DNA of 64,000 bases from Deltaproteobacteria bacterium (lineage in GTDB: Bacteria > Desulfobacterota > Desulfobacteria > Desulfobacterales > Desulfatirhabdiaceae). The translations under genes were made by a program, and so were the position numbers. The first letter of the stretch is position 1. Each line of letters opens with the position of its first letter. The stretch covers positions 1 through 64,000 of the forward strand of contig JACRBZ010000010.1 of the NCBI GenBank assembly GCA_016219185.1, given 5' to 3'. Shown here piece by piece: positions 2,891-64,000 of this stretch. The notes under the pieces were generated by a model, which saw nothing but the letters and a program-made list of their open reading frames with translations, searched no databases and was not told the origin of the DNA.

Positions 2891-4531
2891 ATGGCGATTT
2901 CCCCCCTTGCCGGCAAACCGGCCCCACCGGAAATGCGGATTGACCCGGCCCGAATCGAGCAGGCGTATTATGAGCGCAGGCCGGACCCGGATGATCCCGA
3001 TCAACGGGTCAGTTTCGGCACCAGCGGGCATCGCGGCTCGCCGATCCATGGCACGTTTACCGAAGCGCACATTCTGGCTGTCACTCAGGCCATCTGTGAT
3101 TACCGGCAGAGCCGGGACATTGACGGCCCGCTTTATATGGGAAAGGACACGCACGCACTGTCCGGGCCCGCCCAACGCACCGCTATCGAGGTTCTGGCCG
3201 CAAACGGCGTTGAAACCATCCTTCAGGAAAACGACGGTGTCACGCCGACACCGGTCATCTCACGGGCCATTCTCGTCCATAACCGCGACCGCGGGAAGCA
3301 CCTTGGTGACGGCATTGTCGTGACGCCGTCGCACAATCCCCCGGAGGATGGCGGCTTCAAGTACAACCCGCCAAACGGCGGCCCGGCAGACACCGATGTG
3401 ACGAAATGGATTCAGAACCGGGCCAACGAACTGATGCGAAAAAGCAATGCAGACGTCAAACGCATGCCGTTTGCCACGGCCATGAAAGCGGATACGACGC
3501 ACGCAAAAGACTTCGTTCTTCCCTACGTCAGCGACCTTAAAAACGTCATCGACATGGAGGCGATCCGTACATCGGGCATCAAGATCGGCGTTGATCCGCT
3601 CGGCGGCTCCGCAGGTCCCTACTGGGAGCCGATCCGTGACATGTATCACGTGGACCTTGCCGTTGTGAATGAAACGGTGGATTCAACCTTTTCGTTCATG
3701 AGCGTCGATCACGACGGCAAGATCCGCATGGACTGCTCCAGCCCTTATGCCATGGCAAGCCTTGTCGGTCTCAAGGATCGGTATCAGATCGCTTTTGCCA
3801 ATGATCCGGACGCGGATCGCCACGGCATTGTCACCCGTTCCGTGGGGCTGATGAATCCCAACCATTATCTGGCCGTGGCCATTCACTATCTACTTACGCA
3901 TCGGCCCCTGTGGTCCGCGGCATCCATGGTCGGCAAAACCCTGGTCAGCAGCGGTCTCATCGATCGGGTGGCGAATGAACTGGGACGCCGGTTATTCGAA
4001 GTGCCGGTCGGCTTCAAATGGTTTTCGCCGGGATTATTTGACGGCTCCTGCTGTTTCGGCGGGGAAGAGAGCGCCGGCGCCAGCTTCCTTCAAAAGGACG
4101 GGAGCGTATGGACTACCGATAAGGACGGGTTGATCCTGGGCCTGCTGAGCGCGGAAATCACAGCCATCACCGGAAAAGATCCGGGAGAATATTACCGGGA
4201 TCTCACAAAAAGGCATGGATCTTCCTATTATACGCGTATCGATGCCCCGGCCACGCCATCGCAGAAAGCCGCGCTCAAGAAACTCACCCCCGAGGTCGTG
4301 ACGGCAACGGAACTGGCCGGTGAGCCCATTGTGGCCAAACTGACACGTGCCCCGGGAAATGACGCCCCCATTGACGGTCTCAAGGTTGTAACCCGTGAGG
4401 GATGGTTCGCGGCCAGGCCATCGGGAACGGAAAATATTTACAAACTCTATGCCGAAAGCTTCAAGAGTCAGACGCATCTGGATGCCATCCTGGAAGCGGC
4501 GCAGAAAATCGTTACCCGATCTCTGCAATAA
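2891..4531 (+). CDS. pgm: Phosphoglucomutase
   Basis: Interconverts glucose 1-phosphate and glucose 6-phosphate, linking glycogen and sugar-nucleotide metabolism to glycolysis. The 546-residue length equals that of the E. coli Pgm type. Motifs in order: N-terminal [10 protein letters not shown]; the phosphoserine loop TPSHNPP at about residue 145; the Mg-binding DPDADRHG; the sugar-binding [10 protein letters not shown]; and the phosphate-binding [12 protein letters not shown] near the end. The ATG follows AAGGA. It lies 88 bp upstream of pyruvate kinase in the same direction, so a joint transcript is plausible. It may serve the glycogen debranching enzyme located 33 kb away, but that link is functional inference. 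Confidence 0.97.
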
Positions 4532-4619
4532 CAGCCTCAAATGCGAGGAGCCGAAGAGCGATTTTTCCTGCTTTTCCGTTTCTCCAGGCTCCCCAGTTCT
4601 ACGATAGAGAGGACAGGTA

Positions 4620-6047
4620 ATGCAAATTCCGACACACAAAACCAAAATCGTCTGTACGATCGGCCCGGCGTCACAATCTCCCGAAGTGATGGAACGCATG
4701 CTGCTTGCCGGAATGAATATCGCCCGCCTCAATTTCTCCCACGGGGATTTTTCGGAACACAAAGCCGTCATCGAGAATCTTCGGGCCGCATCGCGCCGGA
4801 CAGGACGGCGTCTGACACTTCTGGCAGATCTTTCCGGTCCAAAGATGCGTGTCGGAAAGATCGCCGATGAACCCATTGAATTAAAGCCAGGCGAGCCGTT
4901 CACGCTGACCACGGACGAGATCATCGGCAACAGCAGCCGGGTTTCGGTATCCTTTGCCCGTCTGCCCCAGGCCGTGAAACCGGGGGACACGCTGTTTTTA
5001 AACGATGGGTACATCCAGCTCGAAGTCGTCGGTACCGCATCCCCCGATGTGCACTGCCGGGTGCTGGTGGGAGGCGAGCTGCGTTCCAGAAAAGGCCTGA
5101 ATCTTCCGGACATTGATCTTGGCATCGGCGCGTTCACCGAATGGGATCGCAAGTGTCTGAAGTTTGCCTTGGAGAACGGCGTGGATGCCGTGAGCCAGTC
5201 CTTTGTCGAGCGGGCAACCGACATCGAAGCCGTGCGCAAGGCGGCAAGCGATTTGGGATATTCCCCTTTTATCATCGCAAAGATCGAACGCTCCGGCGCG
5301 CTTGAGCATATCGATGAGATCATGGCGGCCGCGGACGGCATCATGATCGCCCGGGGGGACCTGGGTGTCGAGGTCCCCTTCGAGCAGATCGCCGTGGTGC
5401 AAAAAAGGCTGATGCGACTGGCCAACATGCACGCGAAACCCATCATCACCGCAACCCAAATGCTGGAGTCCATGACGGATAATCGGCGTCCCACCCGGGC
5501 CGAGGCCACGGACGTTTCAAACGCCATCCTTGACGGAACCGACTGCGTCATGCTTTCCGGAGAATCCGCAATGGGGAAATATCCTGTGGATAGCGTGGCA
5601 ACACTTGCAAAAATCGCCGCTGCCGTGGAACCGCATCGTCCCGCCATTACGGTAAAGGAACTGCATCCGGGAATCAATCTTGCCGGCAAACTCCGTCCGG
5701 CCCATCTTATTGCTTTGAGCGTGGAAACCTGCCTGGAATATATGCTGCCGGCCGCTGTTTTCACACCGACCCACGGCGGCGAGACCGCCAGAAAGATCGC
5801 AGGATTTCGCCTGCCGGTCTGGACCATTGCAGTCAGTTCGCTGAATTCAACGTGTCAGGCCCTTCAGTTTTCTCAAGGCGTTCATCCGGTACACGAACCC
5901 GAACACCCGGACGACTGGAACGCCTATGCCCGAAGCTGGCTGTTGGAACACGAACTTGCCGGGAATTTCGCCCTGCTCACCGAAGGCCCTTCATCAAAAT
6001 ATCCGAAGGCAAACAACCGACTGGAAATCATTGATCTGATGCGATGA
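4620..6047 (+). CDS. pyk: Pyruvate kinase
   Basis: Converts phosphoenolpyruvate and ADP to pyruvate and ATP. The 475-residue protein begins with the family N-terminus (TKIVCTIGPAS), carries ARLNFSHG, the catalytic segment IIAKIERSGALEHIDEI, the metal-binding MIARGDLGVEVP, and ITATQMLESM followed by PTRAEATDVSNAILDG. The C-terminal regulatory domain is present, so the protein is full length. An AGAGAGGACAGG stretch precedes the ATG. Likely cotranscribed with pgm upstream. Confidence 0.97.
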   Translation: MQIPTHKTKIVCTIGPASQSPEVMERMLLAGMNIARLNFSHGDFSEHKAVIENLRAASRRTGRRLTLLADLSGPKMRVGKIADEPIELKPGEPFTLTTDEIIGNSSRVSVSFARLPQAVKPGDTLFLNDGYIQLEVVGTASPDVHCRVLVGGELRSRKGLNLPDIDLGIGAFTEWDRKCLKFALENGVDAVSQSFVERATDIEAVRKAASDLGYSPFIIAKIERSGALEHIDEIMAAADGIMIARGDLGVEVPFEQIAVVQKRLMRLANMHAKPIITATQMLESMTDNRRPTRAEATDVSNAILDGTDCVMLSGESAMGKYPVDSVATLAKIAAAVEPHRPAITVKELHPGINLAGKLRPAHLIALSVETCLEYMLPAAVFTPTHGGETARKIAGFRLPVWTIAVSSLNSTCQALQFSQGVHPVHEPEHPDDWNAYARSWLLEHELAGNFALLTEGPSSKYPKANNRLEIIDLMR

Positions 6048-56437: not shown

Positions 56438-56466
56438 TTGACATGAATCCGGTTTTAGAATAAAAT
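56438..56466 (+). promoter_or_regulatory. Promoter of the TAXI/histidine kinase operon
   Basis: TTGACA (56438-56443), exactly 17-bp spacer, TAAAAT (56461-56466). It lies about 108 bp before the TAXI gene ATG at 56574. Confidence 0.65.
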
Positions 56467-56573
56467 TTAGGATTCAATATATCCAATTCAGCCGAAAAAT
56501 CGGGACCAATCCGCATTCCTTTTTTAAGCGAACCGACTCTGTTTTGATGATATCACCTCCTGGAGGAAATCAA

Positions 56574-57686
56574 ATGAATACGCCACTGCGAATTTCCCTT
56601 ACCGGGGCCTGCCCGATGCCGATCCCTGCTGCACGCAAAGTCCCTTCATGGCGGTGGTCAATTTTGAAATCTGTTTTTCCGGCGTTAATGATTCTTCCGC
56701 TGTTTCTGGTGCTGGCACTTCCCTCCCCTGCTGCCGGAGAAATAATACATCTGTTTCGCATCGGAACCGGAGGACCCACCGGCGTCTATTATCCGATCGG
56801 TAAATTGATCGCAGAGGGACTGACCAAACCGGTGAACGAAAAGGATTCCCCCTGCGCCGCGGTAAATGCTGGGCCCGGTATCATTGGTGTGGCACAGTAC
56901 TCTGCCGGCTCAATCGAAAATGTCCGGGCCGTTGTCTCCGGCCAGATCGAAGCCGGATTGGTCCAGGCCGATGTCGCGGCCTGGGCGTTTCTGGCGGAAC
57001 ACGCTTTCTCCGGAGATCCGAGTGGTCGTTCCGTTCGCGCAGTGGCAAGCCTCTATCCCGAAATGTTTCAGCTTGTTACCCGCCGGGATGCCAATATTCG
57101 CAGTGTATCGGATCTTCGCGGGAATCGCATTGCCATTGACGAGCCAGGCTCAGGAACATTGCCGGTCATGCGAATTGTTCTGGGTGCTTACGGTCTTTCG
57201 GAAAGCGATTTTTTCCCGGTGCATTTAAAGCCCGTGTTCACCCATGACAAAATGGCTCAAAACGAAATTCAGGGCTTTGCGATGATGGCCGGTGCCCCGA
57301 TGGAAGCGGTCACGCAACTTTCCGATATCGGTCTGTTTCTTGTTCCCATCGATTCGAATACGGCATCGGGAATTACCGCTCGCTTTCCCTATCTTGTTCC
57401 GGGCAAAATCCTCTCAGGGGTGTATTCCGACATTCCCGAGACACCAACCCTTCAGGTGTATGCCTTGCTTGTGGTAAGTGCGGATATTTCAGAAGATCTG
57501 GTCTACCAGGTAACCTCCGCCCTGTGGAGTGAACGGACCCTTTCTTTACTGAAACGAGGTCCTCCCCAGGGAAAATTGATCACTCCAAAAACCGCACTGA
57601 CAGGATTATCCATTCCACTTCACGCCGGGGCAGAACGTTTTTACCGGGAAAAGGAATTGTTGTTAAAGGGAACCCTTTCGCCATGA
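56574..57686 (+). CDS. TAXI-family solute-binding protein
   Basis: Periplasmic binding protein of the TRAP-associated extracytoplasmic immunogenic (TAXI) family, 370 residues. A long N-terminal region and hydrophobic signal (about 35-57, ending PAAGE) precede the mature FRIGTGGPTGVYYPIGKLIAEG, GSIENVRAVVSGQIEAGLVQ, RSVSDLRGNRIAIDEPGSG and DIPETPTLQVYALLVV, all TAXI landmarks. ATG 56574 follows GGAGG; the frame extends to 56544 but without support. No TRAP permease lies nearby; instead the stop overlaps a histidine kinase start (ATGA), suggesting the protein is the sensory subunit of that kinase. Confidence 0.93.
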   Translation: MNTPLRISLTGACPMPIPAARKVPSWRWSILKSVFPALMILPLFLVLALPSPAAGEIIHLFRIGTGGPTGVYYPIGKLIAEGLTKPVNEKDSPCAAVNAGPGIIGVAQYSAGSIENVRAVVSGQIEAGLVQADVAAWAFLAEHAFSGDPSGRSVRAVASLYPEMFQLVTRRDANIRSVSDLRGNRIAIDEPGSGTLPVMRIVLGAYGLSESDFFPVHLKPVFTHDKMAQNEIQGFAMMAGAPMEAVTQLSDIGLFLVPIDSNTASGITARFPYLVPGKILSGVYSDIPETPTLQVYALLVVSADISEDLVYQVTSALWSERTLSLLKRGPPQGKLITPKTALTGLSIPLHAGAERFYREKELLLKGTLSP

Positions 57687-60226
57687 AACCGTCTCGCCAC
57701 TTTTCCCAGATACTGCAATGGAGCGCCATTGCAGTGGTTGTTGCCGCCGTGGTTACAACCGGAGTTTTGACCAACATCACGCTGAGATCCATCGAAAAAA
57801 ATCTTCCGATCACGCTGCTCACGGAACTTGAAGCCCTTGAACTGCTGATCGAGGATCTTGCCGAAGTCGTTTCGACTGCGGAAGCAACCCGAATGACGCC
57901 TACTCCTGAAAACTATACTCAACTTCGCCATAAGGTCAGGATCGTCTCAGAGGGCGTGGTGAAACTTCGGAATACGTACGTATTTGACAATCTGGTTCAG
58001 GCTTCCGCATTTCACGCTGTTGTCGCTCCGGCCATCAGCGACATGAAACTCTGGCTTGAGGAAGGCGTATCGGGGTATGGTCCGGAAACAGCCACGACAC
58101 TGGATATCGCCCTGTCCCGAATCACCAGGGCATTTTCGAAAGCCAGAGCCCTATACCACGACTCCCAGAAAATTGCCCAGAACATCATGAATGAGCAGCG
58201 CAATCGGCTGGAACATTTTCTGCTCAGCGTCAACCTGCTCTTCCTGCTGACGCTGGTAATTACGGCTATCATGATTTTTCTCATTGCTCGCAGACAGGTG
58301 TTTTTTCGAAGGGAGCTTGAAGTCCAGACGGAACTCCGGCGTACCGAAAAAACACTGCAGGAGACCGAGGAGCTTTACGGTAAGCTAATCGCCGCCATAT
58401 CCGATATCGTGGTCCGAACGGATGTCAACGGTCGGATTCTCTTCCTGAATGATGTTGCGCTCCGGATCAGCGGGTATCAGTCAGCAGAGGTCCTGGGGAA
58501 AAACCTTCTGGAGTTTATCGCACCCGAGGATCGGGCGTCCGCCATCGAAAACCTGAAACTCATCTTCGATCACAAAATAGACCCCAAAAAATACGCTATC
58601 GTGATGAAGGACGGGAAAAAAATTCCCTTTGAAATCAGTTCGGATGTTCTTCGCAGAAATGACGGATCGCCATACGAGATCGTAAACATCTGCCGCGATA
58701 TCAGCAAACGCCTGCAGGCTGAGGAAGCACTCAGGGAAAGTGAAAAACAATACCGGCTGCTGGTTGAAAATGCCAATGACGCAATTTTCATCGCACAGGA
58801 TGGAAAAATCAAGTTTCCAAATCCAAGGACCCTGGAAATCCTCGGGTTTACAGAGGAACAACCGGAAGAAATTCCTTTTATTAACTTCATTCACCCCAAA
58901 GACCGCGAAATGATCGTTGATCTGCATCGTCGAAGAATGTCCGGAAAAGATCACCTGCCGACAAATCTTTCCTTCAGGATCATTAACACCGCCGGCAGGG
59001 AATATACCGTGCAACAGAATGCCGTCAGTATCGCATGGGAAGGGCGACCCGCCTCTCTGAATTTCGTCAGAGACATCACCGACCAACTGAATCTGGAAGC
59101 CAGTCTTCGACAGGCTCAAAAAATGGAGGCCATCGGCACCCTTGCAGGCGGCATCGCACACGATTTCAACAACTTATTGATGGGAATTCAGGGCCGGATA
59201 TCACTGATGATGTTCGGAATGGGGGCCGCGCATCCTTTTTTTGAACACCTCACCTGCATCGAGGATTGTGTGAAAAACGCTACCGACCTGACCCGGCAGC
59301 TACTGGGATTTGCCAGAGGAGGCAAATACGAAATCAAACCAACCCGAATGAACGATATTCTGGATCAGAGCATTGAAATGTTCGGGCGGACGCGAAAAGA
59401 AATTCAAATACACAAGAATTACGAGGCACATCTCTGGACAGTGGAGGTTGACCAGGGGCAAATGCATCAGGTGCTGCTGAATTTATTCGTCAACGCCTGC
59501 CAGGCAATGCCAGGCGGCGGGAATTTGCATCTTCGGACGGAAAACTGTGTCATTCATCAAGACATGCATCGGCCCCCGGAATTGAGTCCTGGCAATTATG
59601 TAAAAATATCCGTCACCGATACGGGCGTTGGAATGGATGATGCTACAAAGGCGCGTATATTCGAGCCATTTTTCACCACAAAGGAAATGGGACGGGGAAC
59701 GGGATTGGGACTGGCTTCATCCTATGGCATCATTCGAAACCACGGCGGATGGATTTGTGCGGACAGCAATATCGGACAGGGCAGCACTCTTAGTTTTTAT
59801 CTGCCGACATCAGAAAAAACCGTAAAACCACAGAGTCATGTTCCAGAGACTGAGTTGAAAGAAAACAAATCGATTCTGCTCGTTGATGATGAAGACATTA
59901 TCATCGATGTCGGCAAACAATTCCTTGAAGTCCTCGGATACACCGTTTTCTCCGCGCGTTCAGGCCAGGAAGCCCTGGATATCTACACCCGGGAATTCGG
60001 AAAAATCATTTTGGTGATTCTGGATATGATCATGCCGACGATGGATGGCGGGGAGACGATTCAGCGCCTCAAAGCCATCAATCCCACAGTCAGGATTATT
60101 CTTTCAAGCGGCTACAGCTTCAATGGGCAGGCAGCGGAAATCATGGATCGTGGATGCAACGGATTCATCCAAAAACCATACAGCCTCAATGAGCTGTCTC
60201 AAACGATTCGCAAGGCTCTCGAATAG
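57683..60226 (+). CDS. Hybrid sensor histidine kinase, PAS-PAS
   Basis: 847-residue inner-membrane kinase. Helices at about 12-33 and 179-201 enclose a ~145-residue periplasmic region, predicted helical. Two PAS domains (~225-345 and ~350-470), a HisKA region with phospho-acceptor His in GGIAHDFNNLL (~493), HATPase_c (NLFVNACQAM, DTGVGMDD, FFTTKEMGRGTGLGL) and a C-terminal receiver (ILLVDDEDI, Asp of LDMIMPTMDGG ~780, Lys of QKPYS) follow. It starts inside the TAXI stop codon. No separate output regulator is adjacent. Confidence 0.95.
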   Translation: MKPSRHFSQILQWSAIAVVVAAVVTTGVLTNITLRSIEKNLPITLLTELEALELLIEDLAEVVSTAEATRMTPTPENYTQLRHKVRIVSEGVVKLRNTYVFDNLVQASAFHAVVAPAISDMKLWLEEGVSGYGPETATTLDIALSRITRAFSKARALYHDSQKIAQNIMNEQRNRLEHFLLSVNLLFLLTLVITAIMIFLIARRQVFFRRELEVQTELRRTEKTLQETEELYGKLIAAISDIVVRTDVNGRILFLNDVALRISGYQSAEVLGKNLLEFIAPEDRASAIENLKLIFDHKIDPKKYAIVMKDGKKIPFEISSDVLRRNDGSPYEIVNICRDISKRLQAEEALRESEKQYRLLVENANDAIFIAQDGKIKFPNPRTLEILGFTEEQPEEIPFINFIHPKDREMIVDLHRRRMSGKDHLPTNLSFRIINTAGREYTVQQNAVSIAWEGRPASLNFVRDITDQLNLEASLRQAQKMEAIGTLAGGIAHDFNNLLMGIQGRISLMMFGMGAAHPFFEHLTCIEDCVKNATDLTRQLLGFARGGKYEIKPTRMNDILDQSIEMFGRTRKEIQIHKNYEAHLWTVEVDQGQMHQVLLNLFVNACQAMPGGGNLHLRTENCVIHQDMHRPPELSPGNYVKISVTDTGVGMDDATKARIFEPFFTTKEMGRGTGLGLASSYGIIRNHGGWICADSNIGQGSTLSFYLPTSEKTVKPQSHVPETELKENKSILLVDDEDIIIDVGKQFLEVLGYTVFSARSGQEALDIYTREFGKIILVILDMIMPTMDGGETIQRLKAINPTVRIILSSGYSFNGQAAEIMDRGCNGFIQKPYSLNELSQTIRKALE

Positions 60227-60336: not shown

Positions 60337-60558
60337 ATGGCATATACATGTAAAAATTGCGGAGCCGTCGCAAACGATCCCGGCCATTTGTGCAATCCCT
60401 GCGGGGATAAGGCCAATTGCAGTTTTTGTGGAACCCCGAATGTTGATGCCGGCCATATGTGTAAAGATAAACTGGCAGCCATGAAATATGTTTGCGAGGG
60501 ATGTGGCCGCGTGGCCATGGAAATGGGTCACCTTTGCAAACCCTCGGCCATCAAATGA
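60337..60558 (+). CDS. Small protein with three zinc-binding-like modules
   Basis: 73 residues, AAAAGGAGAGG upstream. Three modules share the exact pattern C-x2-C-x8-H-x-C: C5/C8/H17/C19, C28/C31/H40/C42 and C53/C56/H65/C67, with C22 extra. Each could bind one zinc or other metal. I do not recognise a named family; similar short Cys-rich proteins are known in deltaproteobacteria. TTGACA at 60251-60256 may be its -35 but the -10 is unclear. Single gene. Confidence 0.8.
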   Translation: MAYTCKNCGAVANDPGHLCNPCGDKANCSFCGTPNVDAGHMCKDKLAAMKYVCEGCGRVAMEMGHLCKPSAIK

Positions 60559-61205: not shown

Positions 61206-61907
61206 TCAAACCCCAAGATAGCGCAGGCGGATGGAAGAAGCGGCCTGAAGTTGATCGGATGTCCCGCTCCAGACCGACCGTCCCTTTTCCATGATATAGT
61301 GGCGGTCCGCAATGCGGCAGAGCGCGCGAACACTCTTATCGATAATCAGGATGGCCAGTCCGGAATCCTTCAGTTCCCGCAGACAGCGCCAGATCTCGGC
61401 ACGAACCAGCGGAGCCAGCCCTTCGGTGGCTTCATCCAGAATCAAGAGGATGGGATTGGTCATTAGAGCGCGGCCGATAGCGACCATCTGCTGCTCCCCG
61501 CCGGACAACCGGTTCCCCAGATGATACCGCCGCTCCGCCAGAATCGGGAAGAGCGTCCAGATCCTTTCCAGGGTCCAGGGATCGCTCGATGCAAAGCGAT
61601 TTGCGGCGGTTGCCGTTAAATTCTCGCAAACCGTCAGGCCGGGAAACACCTGACGGTCTTCGGGAGCCAGCGCAATCCCCATCTTGGCGATCCGGTAAGG
61701 GGCCAGATTCCGGATTTCGCATCCTTCAAAGCGGATCGATCCGCGCCGGGCCGGCGTGAGCCCCATGATGGAGCGAAGCGTGGTTGTTTTCCCCATCCCG
61801 TTTCGCCCCAGAAGCCCCACCACTTCTCCTTTTCGAACCTCCAGGCTCATTCCGAAGAGTCCCTGACTGGCGCTATAAAATGTCTCAATCGACTCGACTT
61901 CAAGCAC
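61206..61907 (-). CDS. livF: Branched-chain amino acid ABC transporter ATPase LivF
   Basis: 233-residue ATPase of the HAAT-type importer. Walker A GRNGMGKTT, Q-loop PEDRQVFPGLTVCENL (the LivF EDR signature), signature LSGGEQQM, Walker B LLILDEATEGLAP. The H-loop position reads IIDKSV in place of the usual His-containing sequence, a variation seen in LivF proteins. It overlaps livG by 8 bp and is the last gene of the visible liv operon. Confidence 0.94.
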   Translation of the reverse strand: MLEVESIETFYSASQGLFGMSLEVRKGEVVGLLGRNGMGKTTTLRSIMGLTPARRGSIRFEGCEIRNLAPYRIAKMGIALAPEDRQVFPGLTVCENLTATAANRFASSDPWTLERIWTLFPILAERRYHLGNRLSGGEQQMVAIGRALMTNPILLILDEATEGLAPLVRAEIWRCLRELKDSGLAILIIDKSVRALCRIADRHYIMEKGRSVWSGTSDQLQAASSIRLRYLGV

Positions 61908-62661
61908 CTTCCAACTCCTCGTCTCCCAGATAAGCCTTGCGCACTTCCGGAAGGGAACGAATCACATCCGGCGTTCCGGTAGCGATCATCTTACCGTAGA
62001 CCAGAACCGATATTCTATCGGCCAGGGCAAAGACCGCCTCCATGTCATGTTCAACCAGCACGAGGGTCTGCCTGCCTTTCAGACCCATCAACAACGCGGT
62101 CAGGTGTTCGGACTCCTCCTGGCCCATACCCGCCATGGGTTCATCCAGCAGCAGGAGTTTTGGTTTTATGGCAAGCGCCATCGCGATTTCCAGTTGCCGC
62201 TGCTCCCCGTAGGAAAGTCTTGCGGCAACGGTCTGGGCCCGTTCGGATAGTCCCACCTGCTCCAGTATGGCCAGGGCAGGTTCTCTTAAAGCTGAAATCA
62301 ATCGGGCATTTTTCCAGAAACGGAAACTATGCCCGCAGCAGGCCTGAACCGCCAGTGCCACATTATCGAGCGCGGAAAAACCCGGGAAAATGCTGGTTAT
62401 CTGGCAGGATCGGGCCAGTCCCAGACGCGAGCGCTCGTGGACGGCAAGCGTTGTGATCTCCTTTCCGGAAAAGCGGATGAGGCCCGCATCCGGTCGCAAT
62501 TCCCCCGCAATCTGAGCAATCAACGTTGATTTTCCAGCGCCATTGGGGCCAATGATCGCGTGCACCTCGCCCGGCATGACGGAGAGATTGAGTCGGGCCG
62601 TAGCCATAATGGCGCCAAAGCATTTTACCAGGCCCTTAACCTCCAGAAGCGCCTCAGCCAT
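61900..62661 (-). CDS. livG: Branched-chain amino acid ABC transporter ATPase LivG
   Basis: 253-residue ATPase. Walker A GPNGAGKST, LARSCQITSIFPGFSALDNV (LivG Q-loop region), signature LSYGEQRQLEIAMAL, Walker B LLLLDEPMAGMGQEE and H-loop LVEHDMEAVFALADR. Overlaps livM upstream and livF downstream by 8 bp each. Confidence 0.94.
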   Translation of the reverse strand: MAEALLEVKGLVKCFGAIMATARLNLSVMPGEVHAIIGPNGAGKSTLIAQIAGELRPDAGLIRFSGKEITTLAVHERSRLGLARSCQITSIFPGFSALDNVALAVQACCGHSFRFWKNARLISALREPALAILEQVGLSERAQTVAARLSYGEQRQLEIAMALAIKPKLLLLDEPMAGMGQEESEHLTALLMGLKGRQTLVLVEHDMEAVFALADRISVLVYGKMIATGTPDVIRSLPEVRKAYLGDEELEGA

Positions 62662-63604
62662 TCTCTTTTGCTCCCCCCAGCAGGCAGTAAATGCCGTTTC
62701 TGCCGTACAGAACCACCAGAATCAAGAGCGGCCCGAGAATGACCATCCAGTGTTCCGTATAGTTGGACAGAACTTCCTCGGCCAGGAGCAGCGCCACGGC
62801 GCCAAATATGGGCCCGGCCAGGCTCTTCATGCCGCCGAGAATCACCATTACAAGAACTTCGGCGGATTGCTTCCAGTGCATGAGCGCCGGACCCACATAC
62901 AGACTTTGATTGGCCATGAGGGCCCCGGCCAGCCCGGCAATGCCGGCGGCAAGGACGAAACAGACCAGCTTATAACGAAACGTGGGAAATCCGAGCAAGC
63001 GCATCCGGCGTTCATTGTCGCGGATACCCTGAATCGCCATGCCGAAACGAGAATGGACAATACGATGGCCTGCAAAAAAGATCAGAATCAGGATGACCAG
63101 AACCAGATAGTAAAAGCTGGTGTGCCGGCTGATGTCCAGAAGACCCGCCAGGGAGCTTCTAGTAGGAAGGGTCATGCCGTCGCTGCCACCGTAACCCTTC
63201 AGGCTGATAAAGCAGTAATAGAGCATCTGGGCAAAGGCCAGGGTAATCATGATAAATGAGACGCCGCGGGTACGAAGGCTGATCGCGCCGATAACAAGTG
63301 CAATCAGCATGGAAACCAGCATGGCCAGGGGCCAGGACAAAAACGCACTCTGAGTCCCCCCACCCCAAAGCGATAGAATTCCCACGGTATAGGCGCCAAC
63401 GCCTAAAAACGCGGCATGTCCCAGGCTGACCATGCCGCCGTAGCCAAGAATCAGATCCAGGCTGAGGGCGGCCATCGCATAGATCATGATCCGCGTAAAC
63501 AAACGCGTGTAAAATATATCCCCAAAGAGGGGAATTACAGCCAGAGCCGCCAGCAACAAAAAAAGAGCGGCGCGGCGAGGATTGAAATGTCCGGAATCAG
63601 CCAT
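62654..63604 (-). CDS. livM: Branched-chain amino acid ABC transporter permease LivM
   Basis: 316-residue inner-membrane permease with about eight to nine hydrophobic helices, including the family segment LDLILGYGGMVSLGHAAFLGVG-type motif and a cytoplasmic loop GIRDNERRMRLLGFPTFRYK that contacts the ATPases. It has 8-bp overlaps with livH and livG. Confidence 0.93.
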   Translation of the reverse strand: MADSGHFNPRRAALFLLLAALAVIPLFGDIFYTRLFTRIMIYAMAALSLDLILGYGGMVSLGHAAFLGVGAYTVGILSLWGGGTQSAFLSWPLAMLVSMLIALVIGAISLRTRGVSFIMITLAFAQMLYYCFISLKGYGGSDGMTLPTRSSLAGLLDISRHTSFYYLVLVILILIFFAGHRIVHSRFGMAIQGIRDNERRMRLLGFPTFRYKLVCFVLAAGIAGLAGALMANQSLYVGPALMHWKQSAEVLVMVILGGMKSLAGPIFGAVALLLAEEVLSNYTEHWMVILGPLLILVVLYGRNGIYCLLGGAKENG

Positions 63605-64000
63605 TTGCGGGAAACAACCCTTGCGGACGCCGGCATAAAATTGCGGCCATCAGCAGATAAATCACCATGGAGGCCAGGGCCGGGGGAAGCAAGATGCGGC
63701 CGAACGTATCAGCAACCCCGACCATGATGGAAGCCAGCAACGCGCCGCGGATCGACCCGAGTCCGCCGATAACGATCACCACCAGTGCCAGGATGAGAAC
63801 CGAATCCCCCATGCCGGACTCTATGGAAAGGATGGGACCTGCCATCATTCCGGCCAGACCCGCCAGGGCCGAGCCGATCCCGAACAACACCGTGTACAGC
63901 AGTTTGATATTGACCCCGAGGGCCCCGACCATTTCGCGGTGGCTGGCACCTGCCCGGATGAGCATGCCCAGACGGGTTTTCATGATTAATACATATAAAA
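63597..64000 (-). CDS. livH: Branched-chain amino acid ABC transporter permease LivH (partial)
   Basis: C-terminal ~134 codons of LivH. The frame stays open to base 64000, and the residues before the internal ATG at 63983 (LYVLI) continue the family pattern, so the gene starts beyond the window. TRLGMLIRAGASHREMVGAL is the permease loop for ATPase contact, and VIVIGGLGSIRGALLASIMVG is typical. The binding protein gene (livK) is not in the window. Confidence 0.92.
   Translation of the reverse strand, partial: LYVLIMKTRLGMLIRAGASHREMVGALGVNIKLLYTVLFGIGSALAGLAGMMAGPILSIESGMGDSVLILALVVIVIGGLGSIRGALLASIMVGVADTFGRILLPPALASMVIYLLMAAILCRRPQGLFPANG

Follow-up and report, generated by a model that had tools for sequence, protein, structure and literature searches.

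TorT-TorS combines a periplasmic binding protein with a hybrid kinase that has its own receiver, and it does so without a transporter. In the XylFII-LytS system, the binding protein XylFII belongs to the sugar-binding Peripla_BP type, and the LytS-type kinase LytS is not a hybrid but has a separate response regulator of its own. The orphan binding proteins AioX, of the AioX-AioS pair, and ArrX belong to a phosphate- or oxyanion-binding PhnD-like family and are thought to be kinase receptors. About ten binding-protein-activated sensor kinases have been characterised (PMC9602780). TorT of Escherichia coli is cited in PMC10384115, and the Clostridium beijerinckii XylFII-LytS system described by Li et al. 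2017 is cited in that paper and in PMC11113362. BctC of the BctC-BctDE system of Bordetella pertussis is a secondary-transporter binding protein that binds a sensor kinase (PMC5812351), and in the TAXI-GltS system of the same species (BP0403) a TAXI protein is translationally coupled to GltS (PMC12344293). Here we describe a gene pair encoding a TAXI-family solute-binding protein and a hybrid histidine kinase, located at positions 56574 to 60226 of a 64,000-nucleotide stretch of a Deltaproteobacteria bacterium genome (Desulfatirhabdiaceae; contig JACRBZ010000010.1, positions 1 to 64,000). We refer to this whole stretch as the window.

The results indicate, with a probability that we put at roughly 0.8, that the TAXI-kinase pair is a dedicated ligand-sensing unit in which a single recruitment event made a TAXI protein the receptor of a hybrid kinase. 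In several lineages, which for the most part are related to sulfate reducers, the kinase-linked TAXI proteins would then very probably be the external receptors of a signalling system. Kinases activated by binding proteins are already well established as a type of system, and a TAXI member in that role appears to be new: no description of a TAXI receptor was found in the literature searched (TAXI, TRAP, kinase), the coverage of which was incomplete, so that this absence is no proof. The pair has the following features.

56438..56466, + strand: predicted sigma-70-type promoter-like site, TTGACA-17-TAAAAT (consensus match)
56562..56567, + strand: GGAGGA, ribosome-binding-like sequence 5' of the TAXI ATG (sequence)
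56574..57686, + strand: TAXI-family solute-binding protein, 370 aa (TIGR02122, PF16868, AlphaFold2 (AF2) model)
56784..57065, + strand: TAXI ligand pocket residues Y72, S113, Q131 and E163 (equivalents of VcGluP Y45, S75, Q93 and E125)
57683..57686, + strand: ATGA, 4 bases shared by the stop codon of the TAXI gene and the start codon of the kinase gene; translational coupling (sequence)
57683..60226, + strand: hybrid sensor histidine kinase, 847 aa (PAS, weak HisKA, HATPase_c and Response_reg matches)
57773..58228, + strand: all-helical sensor domain in the periplasm, approximately residues 31-182 of the kinase (AF2 model, conserved in 15 sequences)
58382..59092, + strand: two cytoplasmic PAS domains (PF00989/PF13426/PF13188)
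59135..59809, + strand: HisKA (phospho-acceptor H493, codon 59159) and HATPase_c (Pfam matches, sequence)
59873..60208, + strand: C-terminal receiver (phospho-acceptor D781, codon 60023; PF00072, 78 bits)

The coordinates of both genes and the ATGA overlap, as given in the original prediction made from the DNA alone, agree with the sequence. The single good promoter that it placed at 56438-56466 was recovered as well, since this site matches 11 of the 12 consensus positions and is the best among 7 sites in the region. The kinase is built from a transmembrane segment, a periplasmic part, a second transmembrane segment, two PAS domains, HisKA, HATPase and a receiver; its periplasmic loop, predicted at about 145 residues, measures about 150 residues between the two transmembrane segments. 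Also in agreement with the prediction, no output regulator adjoins the window kinase.

Relatives of the sensor were searched for with kinase residues 1-223 as the query. A single-sequence search detected none, either in plasmids or in 57 genomes from the order. A sensor scan of contigs from 84,980 genomes gave five loci, and a profile built from these yielded further loci in genomes of the phylum (395 searched) and of the class (389 searched). After removal of duplicates (L037 = L062 and L038 = L061), 16 distinct sensor loci were obtained: the window, L037-L041 and L063-L072. A TAXI gene lies directly upstream of the sensor kinase in all 15 loci that have upstream DNA (L069, which begins at a contig end, falls outside this count), although in L063 the TAXI gene is cut by the contig end. 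The two genes overlap by 4 bases (ATGA or GTGA) in 13 loci; the junction reads TAATG in L067 and is ambiguous in L070. The hosts belong to several families and include Desulfobacterota, Desulfonatronum and one Proteobacteria metagenome-assembled genome. The genes flanking the pair differ at every locus, which indicates that the pair is a self-contained module. Neither DctM nor a fused TRAP permease was detected in the flanks of any of the sensor loci, and as a control the same queries showed that most of the order's other TAXI genes have a fused TRAP permease next to them. Conservation of the pairing in related genomes, proposed as a check by the original prediction, was thus observed in 15 of 15 loci, none with a permease in its flanks. 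This conserved gene pairing with a periplasmic-domain kinase is a feature that the system shares with binding-protein-activated kinases of the XylFII-LytS and TorT-TorS kind.

Some individual loci showed additional features. In L072 (G639:C72, 4904-5936), from a genome that is 78% complete, the TAXI gene is without most of its middle and the kinase sensor is frame-shifted, either through faulty assembly or because both genes are decaying together. In L068 (G756:C10) a regulator with a receiver and an HD-GYP domain, in which HHEKFNGKGYP is kept, starts at 3621, 14 bases after the kinase; it is a candidate output partner and hints at cyclic-di-GMP as a putative output in that lineage. In L063 (G470:C17) the kinase is followed at 3363-4667 by a gene for a 435-residue protein that by eye resembles FadL-type outer-membrane proteins. 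We rejected the neighbouring genes as a guide to the ligand, because flanks vary and the neighbours in L063 and L068 are too few to conclude from. Two weak matches of the sensor profile in the phylum (G178 and G206, E ~6e-4) consist of a partial domain with no TAXI gene nearby, and were set aside as chance or very distant matches.

Distances between TAXI proteins correlated with those between the sensor domains (r 0.885 over 12 pairs; partial correlation 0.81 after controlling for the kinase core), whereas the correlation with kinase core distances was lower (r 0.63) and largely disappeared as a partial correlation (0.19; 12 pairs). The cytoplasmic parts of the kinases vary across the loci, with either a GAF domain or between one and three PAS domains. 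The HisKA types differ too, the motif being AHDFNN in most kinases and SHEIRT in L041, and all complete kinases of the pair end in a receiver. Together, the co-variation of TAXI and sensor and the exchange of cytoplasmic modules argue for a functional contact between the TAXI protein and the periplasmic domain.

Because the loci had been found via the sensor, kinase-free TAXI proteins of the same clade could have escaped detection, and a reciprocal search with a TAXI profile was therefore made in the 389 genomes of the class. Ten TAXI matches exceeded 500 bits, of which nine are kinase-linked and one (G541) lies at a contig edge. The next three, all from Desulfobacterota, scored 350-368 bits with 42-44% identity, and each of them is located beside a fused permease. 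The three best annotated plasmid TAXI matches, which were inspected, are 41-45% identical to the window TAXI protein and each is followed by an annotated TRAP transporter permease. In a maximum-likelihood tree, from which the three intermediate Desulfobacterota proteins were left out, 13 kinase-linked TAXI proteins form one clade (support 100/100) on a branch of 1.21 changes per column, and their nearest relatives are alphaproteobacterial transporter TAXI proteins. The simplest reading would be a single switch from transport to a kinase partner. Two TAXI genes apart from this set were also observed. L080 (G053:C362, 5295-8326, - strand) contains an orphan lipoprotein-type TAXI gene of another branch followed by the gene of a hybrid kinase in which no periplasmic domain is visible; it has no permease and is perhaps a second, independent TAXI-kinase neighbourhood. 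For the TAXI gene of L078 (G042:C7, 6070-7086, - strand) no TRAP permease was found within ~6 kb.

We searched the whole genome to which the window belongs (6.38 Mb, 99.7% complete, 5.74% contamination) for possible transport partners. Searches with PF16868 showed that the window TAXI gene is the sole one in this genome. Nothing anywhere in it scored over the cut-off of TIGR02123, the model of the TAXI-type fused TRAP permease. Four DctM permeases are encoded on other contigs, and each of these genes has a DctP gene and a DctQ gene of its own next to it; in one case DctQ is fused to DctM. A TRAP permease acting in trans was accordingly rejected, given that the four DctM proteins have their own partners and none reaches the TAXI-type cut-off. 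GltS (PF03616) gave no match in the genome and was rejected as the membrane partner of the window TAXI protein. In view of the completeness and contamination values, an overlooked permease is possible but unlikely. The original prediction had noted the lack of a TRAP permease nearby, and had allowed that one just outside the window would speak against it; there is none in the window, and no TAXI-type permease just outside it or elsewhere in the genome. Together with the pairing in 15 of 15 loci, this supports its proposal of a dedicated two-component ligand sensor in which a transporter subunit serves as the receptor.

The window protein is a clear member of the TAXI family. It matched TIGR02122 (TRAP_TAXI) with 228.4 bits (cut-off 84.35) over positions 10-319 of the 320-position profile, and PF16868 with 194 bits (cut-off 27), and it has an N-terminal hydrophobic signal segment at about residues 31-53. 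AF2 prediction gave one good model out of five, which by Foldseek has the two-domain binding fold of solved TAXI proteins: each of the top 7 matches was to a TAXI structure, with E values between 3e-26 and 1e-23, and they include 4DDD, 1US4, 8S4J and 9IBP. VcGluP binds glutamate, with Y45 and Q93 as the main determinants, and its site further includes S75 and E125 (PMC11574862). The equivalents of these four residues are invariant in 13/13 kinase-linked TAXI proteins, which indicates that these proteins probably bind a ligand. Other positions of the VcGluP site are altered (H123 to Y, D157 to T, and Y200 to M or L), so that glutamate should not be assumed as the ligand; part of the same pocket changes are found in the alphaproteobacterial relatives. 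A TAXI segment at 215-223 (PVYLKPxFT) is specific to the kinase-linked clade. From the retained pocket residues, our guess would be a small carboxylate or an amino-acid-like compound.

The window kinase has the three hallmarks of a hybrid histidine kinase, namely the HisKA histidine, HATPase_c and the aspartate of a C-terminal receiver. Its HisKA domain scored below the Pfam cut-off (21.2 versus 26.9 bits), yet H493 is kept in the motif AHDFNN, and the HisKA domains of its relatives scored above the cut-off. In the AF2 model of the sensor (mean pLDDT 84, pTM 0.62), four helices form a bundle that lies between the two membrane helices. Two motifs are conserved in the 15 sequences: RNTYVFDNLVQASxFHxxVAP, covering the loop between helices 2 and 3 and the start of helix 3, and GxSGxxP in the loop between helices 3 and 4. 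The domain matched no Pfam family, and a sequence search gave no relative in the PDB. By Foldseek, its best match (E 0.003), a weak one, was the QseE sensor bound to the lipoprotein QseG. Also weak were the matches to the Anaeromyxobacter kinase sensor 4K0D (E 0.013) and, at rank 16, to LytSN of the XylFII-LytS complex (PDB 5XSJ, E 0.15). Alignment with VIA-align gave best Z values of 12-13, no better than those for designed helical bundles, and the structural match therefore establishes no kinship.

We infer that the TAXI protein and the kinase are in physical contact, that signalling depends on the ligand and that output runs through a phosphorelay. The TAXI protein would be exported to the periplasm and would close around a small solute like other TAXI proteins. 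By analogy with XylFII-LytS or TorT-TorS, the closed form may dock on the periplasmic four-helix bundle, altering the phosphorylation state of the kinase. The phosphoryl group would then pass via the receiver of the kinase itself to a phosphotransfer protein and a regulator encoded elsewhere. The source of the receptor would be a transporter TAXI protein of the type now found beside TRAP permeases in Alphaproteobacteria and a few Desulfobacterota.

Several observations weigh against a dedicated sensing unit. When flanks were compared at all loci, no conserved neighbouring gene pointed to a ligand or an output. Part of the co-variation of TAXI and sensor could arise because neighbouring genes are inherited together. 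Foldseek gave only weak matches for the sensor, and a bundle of four helices looks like many other structures. Finally, TAXI-type permeases are encoded elsewhere in the genomes of ten other hosts of the pair; a second role in transport through such permeases is excluded only in the window's own genome. This last observation favours a TAXI protein with a double role, acting as kinase receptor and also bringing substrate to a permease in trans, and BctC, which binds both BctE and its transporter (PMC5812351), provides a precedent. That arrangement would require a TAXI-type permease, which is lacking in the window genome, and thus cannot be the general rule; moreover, the long branch (1.21) under the kinase-linked clade suggests released or new constraint. 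We regard the double role as unlikely. The same ten hosts, and the usual pairing of TAXI proteins with a fused TRAP permease (PMC12344293), would also fit a TAXI protein that serves a transporter encoded elsewhere while the co-expressed kinase only regulates transport, with no contact between the two. This we consider distinctly improbable, as the window genome encodes neither GltS nor a further TAXI protein and contains nothing that scores as a TAXI-type permease over the cut-off, no permease accompanies the pair at any locus, and it is the sensor domain and not the kinase core that tracks the TAXI protein.

Chemoreceptor four-helix sensors bind small ligands, and several of them are among the structural matches of the sensor. 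The four-helix domain might hence bind the ligand directly, the TAXI protein merely scavenging or buffering it. Such a sensor would need neither strict pairing nor co-variation with the TAXI protein, and we judge direct binding very improbable. Four-base overlaps are common in bacterial operons, and the two genes might in principle stand together by chance or share a general operon without being linked in function. Their adjacency in 15 of 15 loci over several families, with different flanks each time, refutes this. A dedicated TAXI-kinase sensing unit is the reading that we retain.

Other genes near the pair were noted. A 73-residue cysteine-rich protein with three CxxCG...GHxC repeats is encoded directly 3' of the window kinase (60337-60558). 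Four genes on the - strand (61206-63998) that face the kinase resemble those of an ABC transporter for branched-chain amino acids, with two ATPases and two permeases; no link between them and the TAXI-kinase pair was seen.

It is likely that the TAXI receptors form a new class that has left transport and that, with the Pfam-less four-helix sensor, constitutes a portable two-gene module onto which varied kinase cores were grafted in several lineages. The ligands of the TAXI family are poorly known, and the module could help to find them by offering a kinase read-out in place of an uptake assay. Because the window genome lacks a TAXI permease, its TAXI protein can be useful only outside TAXI-type transport, which makes it a clean system for the change from transport protein to receptor, and the transporter-linked relatives (42-45% identical) allow a direct before-and-after comparison.

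Among the known systems, the pair resembles TorT-TorS in combining a binding protein with a hybrid kinase that has its own receiver, in the absence of a transporter. The binding-protein family of TorT is unrelated to TAXI, however, and the window kinase matched the NCBIfam TorS model with only 135 bits against a cut-off of 676, a generic match to the core. AioX and ArrX, whose structures are distant fold matches of the TAXI model, likewise differ in belonging to the PhnD-like family. BctC is a TctC-family protein of a TTT system, is encoded with its permease and has a double role, whereas the TAXI pair has no permease. The TAXI-GltS system BP0403 is similar in that a TAXI protein has moved off the TRAP permease to a new membrane partner with which it is translationally coupled; there the partner is a glutamate symporter for transport, and here it is a kinase. 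As in XylFII-LytS, to which no sequence relation came to light, a solute-binding protein would be the ligand receptor of an all-helical kinase sensor domain, but here the receptor is a TAXI protein and the kinase a HisKA hybrid with PAS or GAF domains.

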